Shown here piece by piece: positions 23 to 31,284 of a DNA stretch of 32,662 nt (its first letter is position 1; each line of letters starts with the position of its first letter). Made by a program: the position numbers and the translations under genes. The DNA comes from an uncultured Ruminococcus sp. (GTDB taxonomy: Bacteria > Bacillota > Clostridia > Oscillospirales > Acutalibacteraceae), in contig CAJOFK010000014.1 of assembly GCA_905234015.1 (NCBI GenBank), positions 1-32,662 of the forward strand, in the 5' to 3' direction. The notes beneath the pieces were generated by a model that was given only the letters and a program-made list of their open reading frames with translations, did no database searches and was not told where the DNA came from.

Positions 23-55
23 TAACGAGTCCAATGGACTCGTTACTTTTTTTGG
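23..55. terminator. Probable bidirectional terminator downstream of tRNA-Asn 3' fragment
   Basis: TAACGAGTCC-aat-GGACTCGTTA perfect 10-bp stem (23-32/36-45), flanked by A7 (16-22) and T7 (47-53). Confidence 0.8.
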
Positions 56-100
56 CTCCCCCAACTGGGCTCGAACCAGTGACATCATGATTAACAGTCG
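53..100 (-). other. 3' fragment of tRNA-Asn(GTT): putative prophage attachment-site core
   Basis: Minus strand reads gaCTGTTAAtcatgatgtcactggTTCGAGCccagttgggggaGCCA: anticodon loop CTGTTAA, T-arm ACTGG-TTCGAGC-CCAGT, acceptor 3' strand, encoded CCA. No D-arm or 5' half lies upstream, so it is a truncated tRNA. Confidence 0.8.
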
Positions 101-502: not shown

Positions 503-874
503 TTATTTTTTATATGTTCCGAGGACATTTCTTTCAATTCTGTCCTCTACTCTCTTATTCATCCATAAAAGAGCTTCTTCGATGTGAGTGAGTGCAATCG
601 CGTTTTCTCTTGTCGCAAATTCTCCCTCCTGAAAACCTTTCAGCCTGTCGCGGACAATCTCAAGCAAATCAGTATCAAGAACGCCGTGAATAGCCTTTTC
701 ATCCTTACGAGCTCCGTCCTGAAACTGAATAACAACTGTTACAGGGTTGTCATCGTTCTCGTTTTCGGGGCAGATGATTAAATAACGATGATTTGCCCCG
801 CCTTTTCCTTTTTCATCCATAGCGGATACAGAGTTAAGTTTTTCTCTTTTCTGAATGGTGTTTAATTCTCTCAT
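503..874 (-). CDS. Tad1/Acb2 hairpin-domain-like putative anti-defence (signal sponge) protein
   Basis: 123 aa; C-terminal half [41 protein letters not shown] matches the remembered Acb2/Tad1 hairpin pattern (GFQxGxFxxRENAxALTxxEEALxWLxxRxxDRxxRxVxGT), with an N-terminal beta-rich region (GGANHRYLI...[10 protein letters not shown]) as in Tad1. Confidence 0.72.
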
Positions 875-889
875 TTTAATAATCCTTTC

Positions 890-1765
890 TTATAAATAGT
901 ATCTCTTATTCCCTACGCCGATATAGGTCATACCCTTATATGTACCGCTCTCAATTTCGGAAATAAGCGTTACCGTGGTCCCGCCGAAGAGCTTAACATC
1001 TTTTCCAAGCTTATTATTGCTTACGGGCTGGGCGAGCACATCTCCCTTAAGCTTATAGGTGTGGAAAGCCGAAAGCCCTTTATCGTCAAGGTGCTTATTC
1101 ATAATCCACCCGGTAAAGTTACCGCTCTTGACTTTGCTCCAGCCGTAGCCGTCATCCTCGAGAAGCTGCACCTTAGCGCCTTTCTTGAGCTTTTTAAGGC
1201 ACTTTGAACTCTTCCCGACCGGATCTTTATAAGCGAGACGATATATCGCGCCGTCCTCAATCAGAGTGGCGGTCTTTTTCTTATTCTCCTCATACTCGGG
1301 ACGGATGAAGCAGTTTACCTGACGGTTATAGCGCGTCTGCTCGAGAACATAGCCGCCGTTCGTGTAGTTTGTGTTTGAGGTGTTGCCCTCAATCGTTTTG
1401 AACGAGGTCGAGTTTATAACCTCGGTAACAAGTCCGATATGAGTATGCGCGGTATGATTGCCCGAGAAATCGAAGATAACGAGGTCGCCCGGCTTAGGCG
1501 TTTCACTCCACTTGCGTTTCTGAGCCGCCATAACCGACATAACCACTCCGCAGCTTGCAACCTTCTTTCCTAAGCAGAATAAAGCCGCTGCGCCGAGCTT
1601 TTTGAATATGTACCAAATGAATACAACGCACCAGGGGTAATAGTCGCCGTGGACGTGCTGGCCGTAGTATTCGGTATTGAATATTACGTCATTGTTGCCG
1701 TCGTCCTTTGTGCCGAGGTACGACCGCGCTTTTTTAATAATCTGTTCAGCTGTCATTTTTTTCAT
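890..1765 (-). CDS. Endolysin: CHAP amidase with C-terminal SH3-like region
   Basis: WCVVFIWYIF (catalytic Cys) and HTHIGLV (catalytic His) CHAP motifs; SH3-like GYGWSKVKSGNFTGWIMNKHL. Confidence 0.85.
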   Translation of the reverse strand: MKKMTAEQIIKKARSYLGTKDDGNNDVIFNTEYYGQHVHGDYYPWCVVFIWYIFKKLGAAALFCLGKKVASCGVVMSVMAAQKRKWSETPKPGDLVIFDFSGNHTAHTHIGLVTEVINSTSFKTIEGNTSNTNYTNGGYVLEQTRYNRQVNCFIRPEYEENKKKTATLIEDGAIYRLAYKDPVGKSSKCLKKLKKGAKVQLLEDDGYGWSKVKSGNFTGWIMNKHLDDKGLSAFHTYKLKGDVLAQPVSNNKLGKDVKLFGGTTVTLISEIESGTYKGMTYIGVGNKRYYL

Positions 1766-2114
1766 CTCCGTTCACATAGTTATTGATATCCTTATTATTT
1801 TTCAAGAGATTTCTCATGTTTTCGAGAGCGTCGTCAACCCACCGGGAGAAGGTATCAAAACTGATTATTTTAGATATAAAAGAAAACTTAGTCAGAAACA
1901 TATCGTAAACGTATCGGAGCTTAATCTGCCCGGTACCGCCGCCGAGAGCCTTCTCCGCCTCGGTTACGGCATAAAGCAGCCACTCTTTAACCTTCTTATG
2001 CCGCTGCGCCTTCGGTAAGCTGAGATATGACGCTATAATCAGAATTGAAAAAGCAATAATCAGCAGCACTATAAGAATAACGTACCAGTTATTAAGTATA
2101 AATTCCATAATCAT
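1746..2114 (-). CDS. Phage holin, LL-H-like family
   Basis: N-terminal TM (WYVILIVLLIIAFSILIIASYL) then KEWLLYAVTEAEKALGGGTGQIKLRYVYDMF. Start moved to 2114 (MIMEF..., SD cgaaagga). Confidence 0.75.
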   Translation of the reverse strand: MIMEFILNNWYVILIVLLIIAFSILIIASYLSLPKAQRHKKVKEWLLYAVTEAEKALGGGTGQIKLRYVYDMFLTKFSFISKIISFDTFSRWVDDALENMRNLLKNNKDINNYVNGDEKNDS

Positions 2115-2302
2115 TTTATCCTTTCGAAAAGTTCTTTTTTCAGAATATCCTTGCTTATATGGGAGCAGCGCAGACACTTACGGTATACCCTGCCCGGGTG
2201 GTCGAACTCGCCCTGACAATCTTCACCTTTTTTGAATAAGCCGATTTCCGCGCTTTTCTTATAACAAGCGTCGTAATCTTTAGGAGTCATAATCGCTTTC
2301 AT
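2111..2302 (-). CDS. Small hypothetical protein in lysis region
   Basis: 63-aa ORF overlapping its neighbours in an operon. Confidence 0.5.
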   Translation of the reverse strand: MKAIMTPKDYDACYKKSAEIGLFKKGEDCQGEFDHPGRVYRKCLRCSHISKDILKKELFERIK

Positions 2303-2582
2303 CGTTGTTATCTCCCATATTAACCTCGACCTCGCCTAATTTAACGCTTTTGACTTTCGGTATTTTTAAGGTTAAAACTCCCGAAATAGCAATAATAAGA
2401 AGCAACACCGCGAAATTGCACCAGATTAATTCGCCCTGAACAGCGCCGCCGTTAAAGTTCACGGCCAGCGCTGCCGCGTCGAAAACAATCATATAAAGAA
2501 TTGCAAAGCATAAAGAAAGAGTTCTTGTTTTCGTTTTGCATATCCATTTCCAGAATCTTTTCATCTTCTTACTCCTGTTCAT
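2280..2582 (-). CDS. Two-TM small membrane protein (lysis region, holin-like)
   Basis: Two hydrophobic segments (TLSLCFAILYMIVFDAAALAV; IWCNFAVLLLIIAISGVLTL). Confidence 0.55.
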   Translation of the reverse strand: MNRSKKMKRFWKWICKTKTRTLSLCFAILYMIVFDAAALAVNFNGGAVQGELIWCNFAVLLLIIAISGVLTLKIPKVKSVKLGEVEVNMGDNNDESDYDS

Positions 2583-2868
2583 GGGCAGAATTATTTAAAT
2601 GCTTATTCATTTTTTTTAGAGCTTTTGTAACTTCGCCATTACAACCTTGCTGTTTTAAACCGTCAAGAATTGCGTTAATACAATAACACATTAGCGCCTG
2701 TTCTTTCTGCATTGTTTTTATTTTTGAGTTGATCTTCCGGATTTCCTGCTCATGCTTTTCATCGCTGCGTTTAATATTCTCGAAAATCTTATAACCGCCG
2801 ATTATCGCTCCGACTACTGTCCCTATTGCCACAATAATCGAAGCGAGCTGAACTATGTCAACAGTCAT
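2569..2868 (-). CDS. Holin-like membrane protein with one TM and coiled coil
   Basis: MTVDIVQLASIIVAIGTVVGAIIGGYKIFENIKR... The called ORF starts at 2991, but the N-terminal 41 aa overlap the upstream gene; internal ATG at 2868 preferred. Confidence 0.6.
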   Translation of the reverse strand: MTVDIVQLASIIVAIGTVVGAIIGGYKIFENIKRSDEKHEQEIRKINSKIKTMQKEQALMCYCINAILDGLKQQGCNGEVTKALKKMNKHLNNSAHEQE

Positions 2869-2887
2869 TATTCTGCCTCGCTTTCGA

Positions 2888-3928
2888 TTATGACGGAGAA
2901 TACTCATAGTGCATGGTGACGCCAGCCGGGAATGCGTTCTCTTCGATATAGATATCTCCCCATTCCGTTTCTGTTCCGGTGTAGTAAACATCGGTTAAGT
3001 GAATGCAGTCTTTAAACGCATTCGGACCGATATTTGTAACCGAGCTCGGGATAACTACACTCTGAAGCGCACAGCCTTCGAATGCGCTTTCTTCTATAGA
3101 TTCAAGAATATTCGGAATATTTATATTCCCCAGCTGAGAGCAGCCGTGGAATGCAAATTCGCCTATCGCTTCTACAGTATCAGGGATGTTAATTGAATAT
3201 AAAGCTATACAGCCATCGAAAGCATGGTCGCTAATCGTTTCCAGATTATTGCAATTTGATAAATCTACCTCTTCCAAACCATCCCACATATAGAAGGAAT
3301 ATCCTGCTATTTCCCCAACTTCTGCCGGTACAACTACGGACGTTCCGCTTCTTCCGATAAATGCAGCAAATTCCTCATCACCGCCGCCGGAGGATATCTG
3401 TTCGATTTTATCAGCATACTGACTGGTCGGCGTATTTTCCGGAACTTCAACGCCTTTATCAATAATAGCCTCGCGAATAGAAGTAAAATCCTCGTTATCC
3501 GCCTCAATTTCAGCAATAAGCTCGGCGCGGGGAGTTGCGTCGGTGCCGTCGGGAGAATCAAGGATTGCTAAATCAACGGCATTAGTCTTACCTACTACAC
3601 CGCCGTCCTTAGTCATTACTAAGAAGATTTTAACAGTTCCGGCGGTATCTGTGATGTCGAGAGTTACACCGACAGCCGCGGTATACTGCTTTTTACCCGA
3701 AAACGGCTGGGCCCCTGTTTCTTTAAGGCTAAGCGGGTATGTAAGAATACTCTCATCCGTAAGCTGTACCTTAAGCGCTACAGCACATGTCGTAATATCA
3801 ACCAGCTCGTTTATAAATTCGCCAGTTATGGCGATATTTAGCTCAGCGGTTCCGTTCTCGCCAATAAAGATTTTTTCATTTTCTGAATCTAAGGTTAAGA
3901 CCTTATTTTCTGTCATATAAAGTTTCAT
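2888..3928 (-). CDS. Tail/baseplate protein with BspA-type LRR_5 repeats (candidate receptor-binding protein)
   Basis: Repeats such as AFDGCIALYSINIPDTVEAIGEFAFHGCSQLGNINIPNILESIEESAFEGC are BspA LRR_5-like; position is downstream of the baseplate genes. Confidence 0.7.
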   Translation of the reverse strand: MKLYMTENKVLTLDSENEKIFIGENGTAELNIAITGEFINELVDITTCAVALKVQLTDESILTYPLSLKETGAQPFSGKKQYTAAVGVTLDITDTAGTVKIFLVMTKDGGVVGKTNAVDLAILDSPDGTDATPRAELIAEIEADNEDFTSIREAIIDKGVEVPENTPTSQYADKIEQISSGGGDEEFAAFIGRSGTSVVVPAEVGEIAGYSFYMWDGLEEVDLSNCNNLETISDHAFDGCIALYSINIPDTVEAIGEFAFHGCSQLGNINIPNILESIEESAFEGCALQSVVIPSSVTNIGPNAFKDCIHLTDVYYTGTETEWGDIYIEENAFPAGVTMHYEYSPS

Positions 3929-3961
3929 ATTTTTTGTCCTTTCATTTTTAATATCTACTCC

Positions 3962-4192
3962 TCACGGAGTTACTTCACTTTCAATAGGCGGTTCGGGCGG
4001 TTCAGGTCTCGGCACGTCCTTAATCGGCACTTCCTCATAGTTATCACGACTTTCGTCTTTACCAATATAAGGCGCTAGTGCAACCTCATTCTCAAAATCA
4101 TAGTAGTATTCATCGGTATCAATTTTGTGAATACACATTCCCTCGCTCGGAATAAGTTTTCTGAGTGTTACGGGAGTTGTTACTTCCTGCAT
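3962..4192 (-). CDS. Small hypothetical tail-region protein
   Basis: 76-aa ORF in operon with SD; proline-rich C-terminus. Confidence 0.5.
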   Translation of the reverse strand: MQEVTTPVTLRKLIPSEGMCIHKIDTDEYYYDFENEVALAPYIGKDESRDNYEEVPIKDVPRPEPPEPPIESEVTP

Positions 4193-4207
4193 AATTTATT
4201 CTCCTTT

Positions 4208-5506
4208 CTAAACTAAATTCCAATTCTTATTAGTAGCAATGGCTATTTCTTCAGCGGCCAGCCTTTGAGAATTACTACCTAAATATAACGTTTTTGCTGT
4301 TTCTCCGGTTAAATCTTTTAAAGCATTCAACATACCTAACATTATTTCTACAGAGAAAATCATATTACTAAAGCCTAAATATAAAGTTGAGTTGAAGTCT
4401 TGTTCTAAATAGACTCTTCTTAATGGAGGTCCACCTAATGAATACGTTTGAATTTGATTTATAGAATTTGGAAGGTGAATTTCTTGTAATGACGCGCAAC
4501 TATCAAAAACATAGAGTCCTATAACTTCTGTTCCGTGTGGCACGACAACCGTTTTTAAATTAACGCATCCTGAAAAAGCCCTCTCATCTATTGACAAAGG
4601 AGGTTGTAAAAATTCAATACTATTTAGTGACGCATATTTGTAACATAAATATGGGTAGATTTGTAGAACGTTTAATTGTAAATTTTGAAAAGTATCTCGT
4701 GCAAGAAACTTCTGCAACTCAAAATCTCCATTTCCTCTGACGCCTAAAACACTAACACCATTTCTTATATTCTCAGGCTGAATATTACTGTCAATCTCAG
4801 CAGTAACACCATTAACCGTCACTGCCGCTAAACCTACATTATCGCCTGTAGGTCTTATAGTTTGCTGTTGAGTTGTAGGTGTAACAGGGTCGGGAGTTTC
4901 AAGCGGAGGGACTCTGTTATTTAATTCCCTAATAGTGTCAGCCTGTAAAGCATTTTCAGCTTCAAGGTTAGATACTTCGCCCTCAAGCTCTCCAACCTGT
5001 GTGTTTAAGCCGCTGATTTCGCTGTTTTTTTCAGATATTGTTTGGTCTTTAGCCAGAACCTCAGCGGTCAACTCTGCTTTGTCCTCAGTTAAATCTGCAA
5101 CCTGCGCCCTCAAATCAGCAATAATTTCGTCAAACTCTGCCCTCGGAGTTAACGGTTTAAGGGTTTTCGTAGGTTCTTTGACGTTGATTTCCTGCTCGTT
5201 AGTACTGCCGATAACGTTTCCGTTATGCGTTATAATCATCATTAACTTTACAACCTGCGCCGCTTCCGTAAGGTCATTCGTAATTAAAAATGAAGCTTTA
5301 CCTTCGGCTGTCGGTATGTTGTAAGGCAGGTAGTCACCGTTCGGCAGGATAGCTCTTAACTCTACGTTGCAATCCTTGCGCGGATATTCGTCAATTTTAT
5401 CAGGAAAGATCATAAAAATTGTTGTTATTAAGTTGTCATTTCGATAGACAACATCATCCATACATAAGTCTATATGACGGCTGTTTTTAAGTGTCAGCTT
5501 ATTCAT
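4208..5506 (-). CDS. Tail fibre-like protein: BppU-like N-terminus, coiled coil, BspA-type LRR domain
   Basis: Heptad-like IADLRAQVADLTEDKAELTAEV...; QQQTIRPTGDNVGLAAVTVNGVTAEIDSNIQPENIRNGVSVLGVRG; RAFSGCVNLKTVVVPHGTEVIGLYVFDSCASLQEIHLPNSI. Confidence 0.7.
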   Translation of the reverse strand: MNKLTLKNSRHIDLCMDDVVYRNDNLITTIFMIFPDKIDEYPRKDCNVELRAILPNGDYLPYNIPTAEGKASFLITNDLTEAAQVVKLMMIITHNGNVIGSTNEQEINVKEPTKTLKPLTPRAEFDEIIADLRAQVADLTEDKAELTAEVLAKDQTISEKNSEISGLNTQVGELEGEVSNLEAENALQADTIRELNNRVPPLETPDPVTPTTQQQTIRPTGDNVGLAAVTVNGVTAEIDSNIQPENIRNGVSVLGVRGNGDFELQKFLARDTFQNLQLNVLQIYPYLCYKYASLNSIEFLQPPLSIDERAFSGCVNLKTVVVPHGTEVIGLYVFDSCASLQEIHLPNSINQIQTYSLGGPPLRRVYLEQDFNSTLYLGFSNMIFSVEIMLGMLNALKDLTGETAKTLYLGSNSQRLAAEEIAIATNKNWNLV

Positions 5507-5732
5507 CCTGCACCTCTATCCAGTCTTGCACTATCACATTATCATTAAGAGAATAATAAGGGTGATACTGCTTAGACCTGTCTGTCGGGTAAGGCTTACG
5601 CTCTAAGCGGTAGTAACCGTATTCGTTATAGAGCGATTCATCATTCGTGAAAACATCCTCGCCGTTAATTCTGAGAGGTCGAGGAGCGGGAGCTATTTTA
5701 CTCTCCGAAATCAATTCATAAAATCTTGTCAT
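5499..5732 (-). CDS. Hypothetical tail-region protein
   Basis: 77-aa ORF in late operon. Confidence 0.55.
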   Translation of the reverse strand: MTRFYELISESKIAPAPRPLRINGEDVFTNDESLYNEYGYYRLERKPYPTDRSKQYHPYYSLNDNVIVQDWIEVQDE

Positions 5733-5742
5733 TTTATTCTCC

Positions 5743-6228
5743 TTAAATCACCTTAAAGTAGTAATCGAGTAAATCTGTTGCGGCTTGAACCATAATTTCA
5801 GTTTCCTGCGGTTCGCCTTCGTCAACGTTCGGGTAAGGTTCTCCGCCGTTTGCTATATTGTTGATAATCGGGAAATAAGCTTCGCTGTTTTCATCAAAAA
5901 ATTCAAAGTAATCGTGCCCTGAAACGTACCACGTTTCTCCTTCATACTCAAATGTTTTAAATCCGTAATCGATCGTGTAATATGAATCGCCATTAAAATA
6001 ACAGTTAGTTTCTTCTCTTGAAACTATAATCGGACCGTACCAAGCGTTAACAGCATATCCGCTGTCATAATGGACTACTCCTGCGATTGCAAAACCAGTG
6101 TTTGTTTTAGTGTAAGTTCTGGTGTTAATTAAACAAATCTGAGTTCCTGCTTCGTAACATTCAAGCTCTGTGCGAACATCACCGCCGCCGCTCTGAGCAT
6201 TCGCAATTAATAATCTACGTCTTTTCAT
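5743..6228 (-). CDS. Hypothetical tail-region protein
   Basis: 161-aa ORF in late operon. Confidence 0.6.
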   Translation of the reverse strand: MKRRRLLIANAQSGGGDVRTELECYEAGTQICLINTRTYTKTNTGFAIAGVVHYDSGYAVNAWYGPIIVSREETNCYFNGDSYYTIDYGFKTFEYEGETWYVSGHDYFEFFDENSEAYFPIINNIANGGEPYPNVDEGEPQETEIMVQAATDLLDYYFKVI

Positions 6229-6230
6229 AG

Positions 6231-7985
6231 TCAGCTCCCGCTTGTAACTTTACCTGCAACAATCACGCCGTTCTTAATTGAGATTTCCCACGTTTCACCG
6301 TTATCAAATTCAGGAACACTGCCAATATACGAAGAAGTCGGAAGAGTTACCGTAATTGTGCCGCTGCTTGCAAAGGTTAGCGTAAGATAACATTCAAATT
6401 CACCGTTAGGGTATGTTAATGTAAGTGAGTTGATGTTAGTGCCTGCATATTCCGTGTTATCTTCAAGTGCTACAGTAGAGCCGCTTGTTATTGTTTTTGC
6501 TGAGGGAGTATAAGCCTTTTCCCAGCTCCAATAAGTCGGTTCTGACTGCTGTTCAAGTTTAGTTACATTCTGCAACCACGTTACGCCCTCAACCTCGGGA
6601 ATAGTTAAAACTTGCTTAAGCATATATGCTGTAGATGTGTTACCAGTACTTAACGGAAGTACTCTTAACTCAACGATAGTATCAGAATCAACCTCGAACG
6701 CCAAAGCCGCGGAGCCTGTAAGCTTAATCGGATAGACTGTATTAACATTAAGAAAACTTAAAGCGTTCAGAGCCGCCACAGTGGAAATAGTTTGTAAATC
6801 AGCTACGCGGTAAAGCTGTTTAGGGATATTGTCGAAAGTGACATTTTCTTCCCAATAATACGAAGTTGAGCCGACTCCTGAAATAATCCTTGTTAAAGTA
6901 AAGATTTTTCCGCCGTTTCCTGTGCCGATAGTTACTACAACTTTATCGCCGAGCTTGCCCTCAAATGAAGTCGGAACAATAAAGTTATTTGTTTCGGACG
7001 TGCTGTAATCCCATACGGTTATGTTAGGAACAGTGTTTAAATCAATAGTCTGAACTTTGTTCCAAGCAGAATAAGTGTTAGGAGTGCCCAAAGTAACATT
7101 TTGAACATACTTCTCGTTGGTAGATGTCGGGAATACTATCTCTCGTTTTACAGTAGTTCCCGAGTTTGGAATAACCGTCATTATACCCGAACCGTGTCCG
7201 TCGAGAGCTGTTGCCGCTAAACCTGTGAATTTAAGGAAATATAATGTTTTCGCGTCAATATAGGATTTAAAAGTACTATCGTCAAGGTCGCTGACTGTAG
7301 CTTCAACGTGTATCTGCTTACCCGAGATTACTTGCTGTAAATCACTTCTTAACTTTGAATAGTCAATAGGGAGTATAGCATTTAACTGCGCTTCGTCTGC
7401 GTCAAATCGAGCGTCTACATCGGTATATGTTCCTCTTGCATTTGTAACTTCGGTTTCTAAGTTATCAGCCGTTTGTGTAACGCTTTCAACATCGACCTCA
7501 ATGTTGTCAAGTCTACCGTCAAGGCTATTGAAAGTCCCTCTTGCTTCGGCTACTTCCTGTAAGATTTCTGATACGGTGCCGTAGCTTTCGGGAGTAACTT
7601 GCGCATTGTTACGGATAGATTCGCGCTTATGAACAACCATAGCGCACGAAGGATAGAGAAGCGAATCTACTCCGTTATCTGATGTCTTAATCTGAAACTC
7701 AACGAGCATAACGCCCGGGAGCATATCGTAATCATCTGTTGAAGATATATCAACTCTTACGGCGTTAATTGTACTGGTAATTTTTTCACATTCAACATCT
7801 TCGGCAACCAGACAGCCGTTCGTTACAAAGGTAGCGGTTACTGTTATGTTGTTTGATGTGATATCGAGCGGCTGGTCGTTTTTATAAAACGCAACCTTAC
7901 GGATATCTGAACCGTTCCGGTCGAGTTCGTGGGAATATGCCGCGTCGGTTGACGGATAGGCGCTGTCTATATTAACCTTTATCAT
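6231..7985 (-). CDS. BppU N-terminal domain-like baseplate upper protein
   Basis: MIKVNIDSAYPSTDAAYSHELDRNGSDIRKVAFYKNDQPLDI..VTATF; coiled-coil spacer; order after Tal. Confidence 0.7.
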   Translation of the reverse strand: MIKVNIDSAYPSTDAAYSHELDRNGSDIRKVAFYKNDQPLDITSNNITVTATFVTNGCLVAEDVECEKITSTINAVRVDISSTDDYDMLPGVMLVEFQIKTSDNGVDSLLYPSCAMVVHKRESIRNNAQVTPESYGTVSEILQEVAEARGTFNSLDGRLDNIEVDVESVTQTADNLETEVTNARGTYTDVDARFDADEAQLNAILPIDYSKLRSDLQQVISGKQIHVEATVSDLDDSTFKSYIDAKTLYFLKFTGLAATALDGHGSGIMTVIPNSGTTVKREIVFPTSTNEKYVQNVTLGTPNTYSAWNKVQTIDLNTVPNITVWDYSTSETNNFIVPTSFEGKLGDKVVVTIGTGNGGKIFTLTRIISGVGSTSYYWEENVTFDNIPKQLYRVADLQTISTVAALNALSFLNVNTVYPIKLTGSAALAFEVDSDTIVELRVLPLSTGNTSTAYMLKQVLTIPEVEGVTWLQNVTKLEQQSEPTYWSWEKAYTPSAKTITSGSTVALEDNTEYAGTNINSLTLTYPNGEFECYLTLTFASSGTITVTLPTSSYIGSVPEFDNGETWEISIKNGVIVAGKVTSGS

Positions 7986-16257: not shown

Positions 16258-17613
16258 TCACTCGTTAAGAGTGTAATAGGTTTTCTCCGCGTCAACAGTA
16301 GTATCCTCGGTAAGAACGTAGTTATCGCCTACCAACTCAAACCAGCCCTGCTCCGAGGGGTTTCCTGTGGGGTTGCTTACCTCGGTATATGTCGGGGTTT
16401 CTGCGGGTTCGTTGTTGTTATCGTCCGAAGCGGGAAGCTCCGTTACCTTAACCTTGAGCACCGCTGCCTTAAGCGCGGAGATATCAAGATAGATGAATGA
16501 GGTGTTATCCACCGGGAAGCCGTAAGCAAAGAGCTTAGTTTTATAAACGCGGTTATCCTCGAGCCACTGATACTCGTCGGAATACTCGATGTTAGCTTTC
16601 TGACCTGCAAAGAAAGGCTTATAGTTAACGATTTTACCGTTAACACAAACGCCGAGGATTGCGTCGCCTTCAGCAAGCTGCGCGGTCTGGAATACATGAG
16701 TCGGGAACGGGAAAATCTCGTTTCTGAATGTGCCGTCAGCTGCGCGGACGGTTGTTCCGGGAATAACCTTAGTAATATAATCCTTAGGATTAACGATAAG
16801 AGCTACCGCTGTGATAGTTCTGTATGTACCGTTCGGACGCTGAGCGAGACCGCCGATTATTCCGCAATACTCTTCAGCGTCGAAACTGTTTAGAGCTACC
16901 TTCTGCTTATCGGGATATACACCGCCGATAACTCCTGCTTCAAGGTCTTTAACCATAGAGATGGGCTGGTCCTTACCGCTGCCCTTAACAAAGCCGTATT
17001 CAAGGCCGTTAGCGATAGCTTCCGCGAGGATTTCTCTTGCATATGCGTCGATATACGCCGCACCGAGTTCGATAAGGTCCTTAGGAATGGGAATGAAAGC
17101 GGAGAGCTTAGAAACGCTGAAATCGAAAGCTTCAATAGAAGCACCCATCTCCTCAGCAATAGCTGATGTAATCTTATCCCACGCCGCGAGAGGAGCGGAA
17201 CCGTCGTGATACAGCCACTTTGTTAACGCGGTTGTATTCTGGAAATCGAGAGCCGCAAGTAAAGGGTGATTAGTTGTTACCTCACCGATAACACTTTCGA
17301 TAAATGTAATCGGGAACGTATTTTCAATACCGCTGAGAGCAGCTTTCGGATCTCCTGCCTTTGCGGCGTCGCGGAAGTCATCCCAGAACTTCTGTTCAAC
17401 AGATGTGAGCTGACGGATTCCGCGCTCGACGAGGATTTTCTTGTCCATCGCCTGAGTTGCCTCTTCAGCTAAGTCAACATATTTCTGCTCAACACTATCG
17501 GCGAATGTATCAATCGCCGTAGCGAGCAGCGTGTCGTCTTTCTTCTCAATAGCCTCGCGCATGTTTTTCGCAAGCTCAAGGCGTTTCTGCTTTAAAAAAT
17601 CTAAATTCTTCAT
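16258..17613 (-). CDS. HK97-fold major capsid protein with C-terminal extension
   Basis: 451 aa after protease; typical capsid sequence NTTALTKWLYHDGSAPLAAWDKITSAIAEEMGASIEAFDFSVSKLSAFIPIPKDLIELG. Confidence 0.9.
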   Translation of the reverse strand: MKNLDFLKQKRLELAKNMREAIEKKDDTLLATAIDTFADSVEQKYVDLAEEATQAMDKKILVERGIRQLTSVEQKFWDDFRDAAKAGDPKAALSGIENTFPITFIESVIGEVTTNHPLLAALDFQNTTALTKWLYHDGSAPLAAWDKITSAIAEEMGASIEAFDFSVSKLSAFIPIPKDLIELGAAYIDAYAREILAEAIANGLEYGFVKGSGKDQPISMVKDLEAGVIGGVYPDKQKVALNSFDAEEYCGIIGGLAQRPNGTYRTITAVALIVNPKDYITKVIPGTTVRAADGTFRNEIFPFPTHVFQTAQLAEGDAILGVCVNGKIVNYKPFFAGQKANIEYSDEYQWLEDNRVYKTKLFAYGFPVDNTSFIYLDISALKAAVLKVKVTELPASDDNNNEPAETPTYTEVSNPTGNPSEQGWFELVGDNYVLTEDTTVDAEKTYYTLNE

Positions 17614-17627
17614 TTAATTTTCCTTTC

Positions 17628-18416
17628 TTAGATTAAATCTTTAAATCTTTCTGATAATTTTTCAAAAAAGTCCTTATTGTCTAAGGGCTCATCATCGGGC
17701 TTCTTTGCGGGCGGCGCAGGTGGTGATTTACGCTGCTCTGCAAAATGTTCAATCGCTTGTTTAATCGCCTTCTTAGCTCCATCGGTACAGTAATGGCTTT
17801 TAAGCGACTGTTCGGCGATTTCTTGACTATCCTCAGTAACTTCAACGGGATTAGTGATTTCATCGCATAGACCGTATTTAAGAGCGTCCTCGGCACTCAG
17901 GAATGTTTCTTTATCCATAAGCTCATTGAGTAAGGTCTTATCGAGCTTGTCCCCTGCTTTTGCAAGGTACGCGGCCTTTGTACTCTCGTTTATTACATCG
18001 AGGTCATCAGCTGATTTTCTTAAATCTTTTGAATTCCCAAAAATGTCCCACATAGCATTATGTATAAACATCGTTGTATTACTCGGCATAACGATTTTAT
18101 CGCCCGCCATAGCAATAACAGACGCTACACTATAAGCAAACGCGTCAATATAAACTGTAACAAACGCACTTTGACGTTTCAAAATGTTATTAATTGCAAC
18201 ACCCTGTTCTACATAACCGCCGCACGAATTGATATAAACCTTTATTTCGCTTACGGGACCTGCTTCATTGATGGCTTTCTGAACGTATTCAGCTGAGGTT
18301 TTGCTTTCAACTTTTCCAAAAAAGCTGTCATAATCAGGCTGAATTTCTCCGTATAGATAGATTTCAAGGACCTTGTTTTCGCCCTGCTGTTTTACATTAA
18401 ACCTTTTATTCAGCAT
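17628..18416 (-). CDS. ClpP-like head maturation protease
   Basis: INSCGGYVEQGVAI...AFAYSVASVIAMAGDKIVM..MFIHNA: S14 serine protease motifs. Start moved to ATG 18416 (SD gaaggtggtg). Confidence 0.92.
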   Translation of the reverse strand: MLNKRFNVKQQGENKVLEIYLYGEIQPDYDSFFGKVESKTSAEYVQKAINEAGPVSEIKVYINSCGGYVEQGVAINNILKRQSAFVTVYIDAFAYSVASVIAMAGDKIVMPSNTTMFIHNAMWDIFGNSKDLRKSADDLDVINESTKAAYLAKAGDKLDKTLLNELMDKETFLSAEDALKYGLCDEITNPVEVTEDSQEIAEQSLKSHYCTDGAKKAIKQAIEHFAEQRKSPPAPPAKKPDDEPLDNKDFFEKLSERFKDLI

Positions 18417-19602
18417 TGTTCTCACCACCTTCCCCTGCAACAGCGATTTTCGCCGTCTGATAGTTTTTTGTAAGATAGTGTTCTTTTGCGAAAGGCTCAT
18501 TACTCGGCAACATTCCCGCGTAACTCTGCGCTTTTTCCGGCGTTAATACACTACAAGCTATTGCTTTATCAATGTTATTAGCGGAGGATATCGCGTCAAT
18601 GTGTTTCGCATAAGTGGTATCTATTAAAAGGAAGTTTCCTTTTACAAACTCTTTTTTCCCGTATCGCTTATCGGTGATTTCCTGAGCGAACGGTTTAGTT
18701 ATAGTGTCAATTGCGTTCGCAATAAACGTATCGACCGCGTCCGAGAGCTGAGAAGCTTCACCTCTCAAAATCGACGGAGGTATATGTAAAGCGTTTGCCG
18801 CTGTATTTACAGCTTCGGTGCGGAGTTTCTGAATATCATTGATTTCGTTATTTGAGCTTCTGTCCGCGTCGCTGCCGGGCTCATCATAGTGAAAGCCTTC
18901 ATAGAGCGGTAAGACCGCATTTTGCGCCTTGCAAAACTTATTAAACCGAATATCAAGGAGTTCTTTGTACTTCTCTTCAAAATCCTGCTCGCCCATAGCG
19001 AAGCTGTCTATATTCAAAATTCCTTTATGCCCGAGCGCCTTGCTATACCGCTGCTCTGCTGTATTCATAAGTGCTTCGTAACTTTCGCACATAGCTCTTA
19101 AAAGCCCTGTTAAGGCAACATTACTGTGTTTAAGGTAGATTACGTCAGAACCTCTGAATGTTTTCGAAAATGTATGACCTCGGGCGGAAACATTGTTGTA
19201 TTCATCATCCGAAATTGCGTTCTCGGTTTTTGAAAAACCGTCGGCAACCAATAACTGTAAATCGGATGTCTGTATAATCAGCGCTTCGCCTTTTAACAGC
19301 AATTTTGAGATGAATTGCGTAACAAATTCCGATTTGGTCTGATGTTTATTCGGATGATAATTCCAGAGGTAGTATTCTTCTCCCTTGTATTCCTCACCAT
19401 TTTGTGAGGTAACAAATTCACATTTTGAAATTGTCCGGGCTATAAGGTCTATAGCCGTAAACAGCGCTAATTCCGTCACGAAAAATTTTGACGTTTCAGC
19501 ATTTTCGAGATAGCTTTCTATATCTTTAAAAGTGAGCTTGCTTTCTCTTTTTCCGGGGGTAAAAATCTTTTTGAAAAATTCTACAATTGAAATATTTATC
19601 AC
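18406..19602 (-). CDS. Phage portal protein (HK97-like)
   Basis: YYLWNYHPNKHQTKSEFVTQFISKLLLKGEALI; NTAANALHIPPSIL. Confidence 0.92.
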   Translation of the reverse strand: MINISIVEFFKKIFTPGKRESKLTFKDIESYLENAETSKFFVTELALFTAIDLIARTISKCEFVTSQNGEEYKGEEYYLWNYHPNKHQTKSEFVTQFISKLLLKGEALIIQTSDLQLLVADGFSKTENAISDDEYNNVSARGHTFSKTFRGSDVIYLKHSNVALTGLLRAMCESYEALMNTAEQRYSKALGHKGILNIDSFAMGEQDFEEKYKELLDIRFNKFCKAQNAVLPLYEGFHYDEPGSDADRSSNNEINDIQKLRTEAVNTAANALHIPPSILRGEASQLSDAVDTFIANAIDTITKPFAQEITDKRYGKKEFVKGNFLLIDTTYAKHIDAISSANNIDKAIACSVLTPEKAQSYAGMLPSNEPFAKEHYLTKNYQTAKIAVAGEGGENNAE

Positions 19603-30165: not shown

Positions 30166-31284
30166 ATGACTGATTTAAAAATTGCCGTTATTGATGTAGA
30201 AACCCCTAATGGAAATAATGATTCTATTTGTTCTATTGGTATAACTGTTATAGAAAATAATAATGTTACCGAAGAAAAATATTTTCTCGTAAACCCTGAA
30301 ACTAATTTTGATTATCGTTGTATTAAGATTCACGGGATATCAGAAAAAGATGTTGCAGATGCATTTACATTTCCCGAGCTTTGGGAAAGAATCAAAGTCT
30401 ATTTTTCGGGTTATTTATTAGCAGGACATAATTTCACCTTTGATTTATCCTGTATTAATAAATCATTAAAAAAATACAATATAGATGTTTCTCCTTCATA
30501 TTACATAGATACATATACTATAGCCAAGGAAAACGTAACAAATACGAATGATTATAAGCTGACAACATTATGCAATACTTTTAATATTGAATTAAAGAAT
30601 CACCATAATTCTCTAGACGATTGCAGAGCTACTGCAAATTTATTGAAAGAATTGATGTCTAAATATGAAATAGATATTGATAACTATATAAAACAATATC
30701 CTTTCAAAGGAAAAACAATTAAAAAAAGCAAAAGAACGTATAGTGATACAACTCGTTCATTACAAGAACTACAAGGGATTTTATTTGGCATAACATGTGA
30801 CGGAATACTATCTGACGATGAAATATACGCTATTCAAAAATGGGCAACCAACCATAAGGAATTAAAAGGTAATTTCCCCTATGATAAAATATATTCCGCA
30901 ATAGAAGATGTGTTGGAAGATAATATTATTACAGAAGATGAACGAGATTATTTATTTTCTCTTTTTAATAATATTCTTAATCCTGTTGAATCAGATAATT
31001 TAACTGAAGAAATTTCTTTAAAAGGCGCTATTATATGCCTAACTGGTGACTTTGAGTGTATGTCAAAAAATGATTTTGAAATTACTTTATCGTCAAGAGG
31101 GGCAATTGTAAAAAAGAATGTTGTAAAAGATTTAAACTACCTTGTTGTAGGAAATAAAGGTAGTCAACAATGGTCTCAAGGAAATTACGGAAACAAAGTA
31201 AAAAAAGCTATGCAATATAATGAAAAAGGTTGTAACATTCAGATAATACCAGAGACTGATTTTTTAATCAGTATAGGTTATTAA
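30166..31284 (+). CDS. DEDDh 3'-5' exonuclease with TerB-like middle and C-terminal BRCT domain
   Basis: VIDVETPN, GHNFTFDLS, HHNSLDDCRAT (DEDDh); LKGAIICLTGDFECMSKNDFEITLSSRGAIVKKNVVKDLNYLVVG (BRCT). Confidence 0.85.
   Translation: MTDLKIAVIDVETPNGNNDSICSIGITVIENNNVTEEKYFLVNPETNFDYRCIKIHGISEKDVADAFTFPELWERIKVYFSGYLLAGHNFTFDLSCINKSLKKYNIDVSPSYYIDTYTIAKENVTNTNDYKLTTLCNTFNIELKNHHNSLDDCRATANLLKELMSKYEIDIDNYIKQYPFKGKTIKKSKRTYSDTTRSLQELQGILFGITCDGILSDDEIYAIQKWATNHKELKGNFPYDKIYSAIEDVLEDNIITEDERDYLFSLFNNILNPVESDNLTEEISLKGAIICLTGDFECMSKNDFEITLSSRGAIVKKNVVKDLNYLVVGNKGSQQWSQGNYGNKVKKAMQYNEKGCNIQIIPETDFLISIGY

Follow-up and report, generated by a model that had tools for sequence, protein, structure and literature searches.

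The gene at positions 503 to 874 of the window (the stretch analysed, a complete contig of 32,662 bp from a draft genome of 2.0 Mb) is best explained, with high confidence, as encoding a CbTad1-type signal sponge that would be made late, from the holin and endolysin transcript. It represents a tailed phage present as a prophage, probably of a gut Clostridia bacterium; an integrase is encoded at its right end, and the minus strand carries the structural genes. The open reading frame picked out by the sequence-only reading is borne out, as is its position at the end of a lysis operon, where holin and endolysin genes precede it on the same strand. The features that bear on this are:

54 to 79, minus strand: tRNA-like sequence, the T-arm/acceptor (3') end; candidate attachment site
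503 to 874, minus strand: tad1, 123-aa Tad1 (CbTad1-type) signal-sponge protein with an ATG start (ORF, phmmer, PHROG, AlphaFold2, Foldseek)
883 to 888, minus strand: AAAGGA, Shine-Dalgarno-like, 8 nt before the tad1 ATG (sequence)
890 to 1765, minus strand: endolysin (CHAP and SH3_3), immediately upstream of tad1 (PHROG endolysin, 5.4e-28)
1746 to 2177, minus strand: holin-like protein (PHROG holin family 6918; weak Phage_holin_6_1 match)
16258 to 17613, minus strand, as tad1: 451-aa ORF, probably the major capsid protein, from its position after the ORF at 17628 to 18500

From this position, we take the product of the last ORF to be probably the major capsid protein and a possible trigger of Thoeris.

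Judged from its sequence, the tad1 product clearly belongs to the Tad1 family as a new member, the protein itself not being novel. A phmmer search matched residues 1-122 to CbTad1 from a Clostridium botulinum prophage at 8.5e-46 (PDB entries 7uav, 8kbg and 8smd), with 63% identity over the full length in a global alignment, and gave weaker matches to CmTad1 (2.2e-14) and gp184 (2.6e-8). PHROG 2428 matches the protein end to end (3.5e-33), and the Pfam family PF24729 (Acb2_Tad1_hairpin) is reached at 3.8e-6, with 27.4 bits marginally above the gathering cut-off of 27; NCBIfam and PADLOC returned no match for this protein. An AlphaFold2 monomer model built on 55 homologues (mean pLDDT 92.8) features strands at residues 15-18, 30-35 and 45-51 and helices at residues 67-83 and 89-114, the latter two corresponding to the C-terminal hairpin of Acb2/Tad1 type that had been recognised from the letters. 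Compared with the PDB by Foldseek, the model returns CbTad1 for all of its first ten matches at a TM score of about 0.90, those at the top (8kbf, 7uaw and 8smd) being complexes of CbTad1 with gcADPR, alone or together with cA3, followed by CmTad1 at about 0.8 and then by no significant match. The two computational checks proposed with the original assignment, a profile search against the hairpin family and a structural comparison with CbTad1, both came out in its favour, the former narrowly.

The earlier preference for Tad1 over Acb2 (anti-CBASS 2), argued from a beta-rich N-terminal segment, holds because similarity to CbTad1 extends over the full length, N-terminal strands are predicted and the top structural matches are all Tad1. 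The model shows the Tad1 arrangement of N-terminal beta strands and two long C-terminal helices, and its three strands are at odds with the short, helices-only form of Acb2, a protein whose C-terminal helical hairpin is related to that of the window protein (PF24729) but which lacks the N-terminal beta part (PMC12043709). No Acb2 chain is among the sequence (phmmer) or fold (Foldseek) matches listed. Among characterised proteins, CbTad1 (PDB 7uav, 7uaw, 8smd, 8kbe and 8kbf) shares fold, length and key residues with the window protein, and differs in belonging to another prophage, the window gene lying in a lysis module. CmTad1 (PDB 8kbb-8kbd) shares the fold at 33-34% identity in the structural alignment. 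The founding member, Tad1 of the Bacillus phage SBSphiJ7, belongs to the same family with 38% identity over the alignment, but its gene lies amid hypothetical genes of a large phage. The residues R57, F82, N92, R109 and R113, which we take to be the ligand contacts of CbTad1, all have equivalents in the alignment (R56, F81, N91, R108 and R112); R56, F81 and N91 do not vary across the 55 homologues, and the two C-terminal arginines hardly do. The intact reading frame, the high identity to CbTad1 and the retention of every key residue make it very improbable that this is a decayed or repurposed Tad1 serving, for example, as a structural or lysis accessory protein, a reading that could appeal to the barely sufficient Pfam hairpin score.

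Tad1 is known as a phage protein that captures the alarm molecules with which bacteria shut down their infected cells. According to a review (PMC12043709), it assembles into a hexamer whose dimer pockets take up gcADPR and cyclic dinucleotides and whose trimer interfaces hold cyclic trinucleotides, all of them left undegraded. By analogy with CbTad1, the window protein would form a hexamer of three dimers, whose dimer pockets would bind the Thoeris signals 1''-2' and 1''-3' gcADPR without degrading them and whose separate trimer-interface sites would bind CBASS cyclic trinucleotides such as cA3. Sequestration of these signals would keep ThsA, and CBASS effectors such as NucC, switched off, and a protective effect would be expected on the same analogy.

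The start codon of tad1 lies 15 nt from the endolysin stop. The sequence-only reading had offered two ways to account for this position, a promoter of its own or protection late in infection. The former is not favoured, as the gap is too short to hold a promoter; none is seen within it, and the promoter-like sites of the region do not rise above chance. The same lack of room favours the latter option, and late co-expression with the lysis genes is the most likely arrangement, a timing to which gene order points. A hairpin downstream of tad1 scores no better as a terminator than shuffled sequences (z -0.36). Made late on the holin and endolysin transcript, alongside the virion genes, Tad1 would be produced together with a capsid protein able to trigger Thoeris. 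The major capsid protein of phage is known to activate staphylococcal and streptococcal Thoeris systems (PMC12578639), so that late expression would put the sponge at the source of the alarm.

The position after the endolysin had been called unusual, a judgement that does not survive comparison with related phages. We gathered relatives of Tad1 from both viral contigs and genome contigs, kept a non-redundant set of 54 with <93% identity and annotated their neighbours by clustering, HMMs and PHROGs. An endolysin gene lies directly upstream of Tad1 in five of the 54 (L014, L063, L064, L069 and L070), and in 16 of the 54 Tad1 is flanked on both sides by portal/minor-head and scaffold/major-capsid genes. 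Seventeen Tad1 loci have head genes of either kind no more than 2.5 kb away in the same orientation, and L023 is an extra Tad1 locus with a minor-head neighbour. Head-gene flanking was found with the same HMMs in 6/70 loci of the unrelated Tad2 family and in 0/14 loci of an accessory gene of the window prophage taken as the single control, a contrast that is inflated by the derivation of these HMMs from Tad1 neighbourhoods and that involves a small control set. A tree of 56 Tad1 proteins places the window copy with four head-module copies (98/89) and the head-module copy L011 with the lysis-module copies L014, L063 and L064 (97/96); in this tree the nearest relatives of CbTad1 (L044 and L065) are head-module copies. 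Such groupings, mixing head- and lysis-module copies, suggest repeated moves of Tad1 between the two kinds of late module.

That late positions are common among relatives answers the puzzle of a tad1 gene placed after the endolysin, and such placement is mechanistically sensible because capsid protein activates Thoeris (PMC12578639). We propose tentatively, and at rather less than even confidence, that late operons are a recurrent site for the anti-Thoeris sponges of Clostridia phages, mostly in the interval from minor-head to scaffold/major-capsid genes and, in second place, behind the endolysin, such that the antidote is made together with the capsid trigger, with Tad1 having moved more than once and Tad2 behaving alike in some phages. 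Given the HMM bias, the small control, the selection of the 54 loci by similarity to the window Tad1 and the fact that the gap between minor-head and scaffold genes may be a general insertion spot, we treat the pattern as a lead. If it holds at scale, it would suggest that phages schedule sponge production to coincide with the emergence of the capsid trigger. It is the sole result here that specialists may not expect, and a literature search, whose coverage excluded most subscription journals, found no publication describing it.

Which system this sponge opposes is less apparent from the host itself. In the host draft, which is 89% complete, neither ThsB_TIR (PF08937) nor SMODS gives a match, and a single TIR_2 gene encodes a membrane-TIR protein with a weak match to the ThsB profile. 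No ThsA was recognised among the neighbours of this gene when these were read by eye, and we reject it as a Thoeris system on these three grounds; the current target of Tad1 is consequently not apparent in this draft. Across the 59 genomes of host and relatives, ThsB_TIR is matched in 11, with Thoeris-type genes occurring in members of the host genus, and no SMODS nucleotidyltransferase rises above cut-off in any of the 59, which makes Thoeris a likelier opponent than CBASS even though the host draft shows none. These counts weigh against a Tad1 fold now acting mainly on CBASS or another cyclic-nucleotide system, a reading we consider unlikely despite the conservation of R108 and R112 and the reported binding of cyclic trinucleotides, and of some cyclic dinucleotides, by CbTad1-type proteins (PMC12043709).

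The host TIR gene also lends something to a different proposal, namely that tad1 serves mainly as a lysogeny moron, whose expression at the prophage terminus next to the attachment site would protect the lysogen from its own TIR or Thoeris signalling. Consistent with this, tad1 is the final gene ahead of the candidate site at 54-79, at the left end of the contig. ARAGORN found no complete tRNA there, and the 54-79 sequence occurs once in the draft genome with no second copy found, so the assembly lacks the second attachment site or the intact tRNA. The 15-nt spacing with no separate promoter and the chance-level promoter-like sites argue against this, and relatives of tad1 sit in head operons expected to be silent in lysogens; we regard the moron proposal as distinctly improbable and retain the late-made sponge.

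Several further loci merit mention. In L056 (5460-6351), a Tad2-like gene (PF11195, locus assigned by motif) precedes Tad1 by two genes in the same orientation, placing two unrelated anti-Thoeris sponges together in one phage. Among the genomes examined, L094 carries a canonical-looking ThsB (1518-2024; PADLOC, 1.4e-49) within a gene run (1518-6483, genome G029) that also holds an ORF resembling thymidylate synthase and one of 333 aa with a TIR domain at its end, a possible undescribed defence cluster. In G015, from the genus of the host, a 637-aa ORF (L099, 1698-3611, minus strand) matches ThsA (SIR2-STALD) in full over residues 10-480 (5.7e-127) and contains a C-terminal TIR domain at about residues 500-590, features that suggest a fused effector-plus-TIR Thoeris-like protein. 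Within the window, a 372-aa DEDDh exonuclease-like protein is encoded near the integrase (30166-31284, plus strand; PADLOC candidate defence model PDC-S48, 9.2e-35). Two large proteins are encoded on the minus strand between the tail and lysis genes, one with BspA-type leucine-rich repeats (2888-3928; LRR_5, 8.8e-31) and the other similar to it by eye (4208-5506), both of which are possible receptor-binding proteins.
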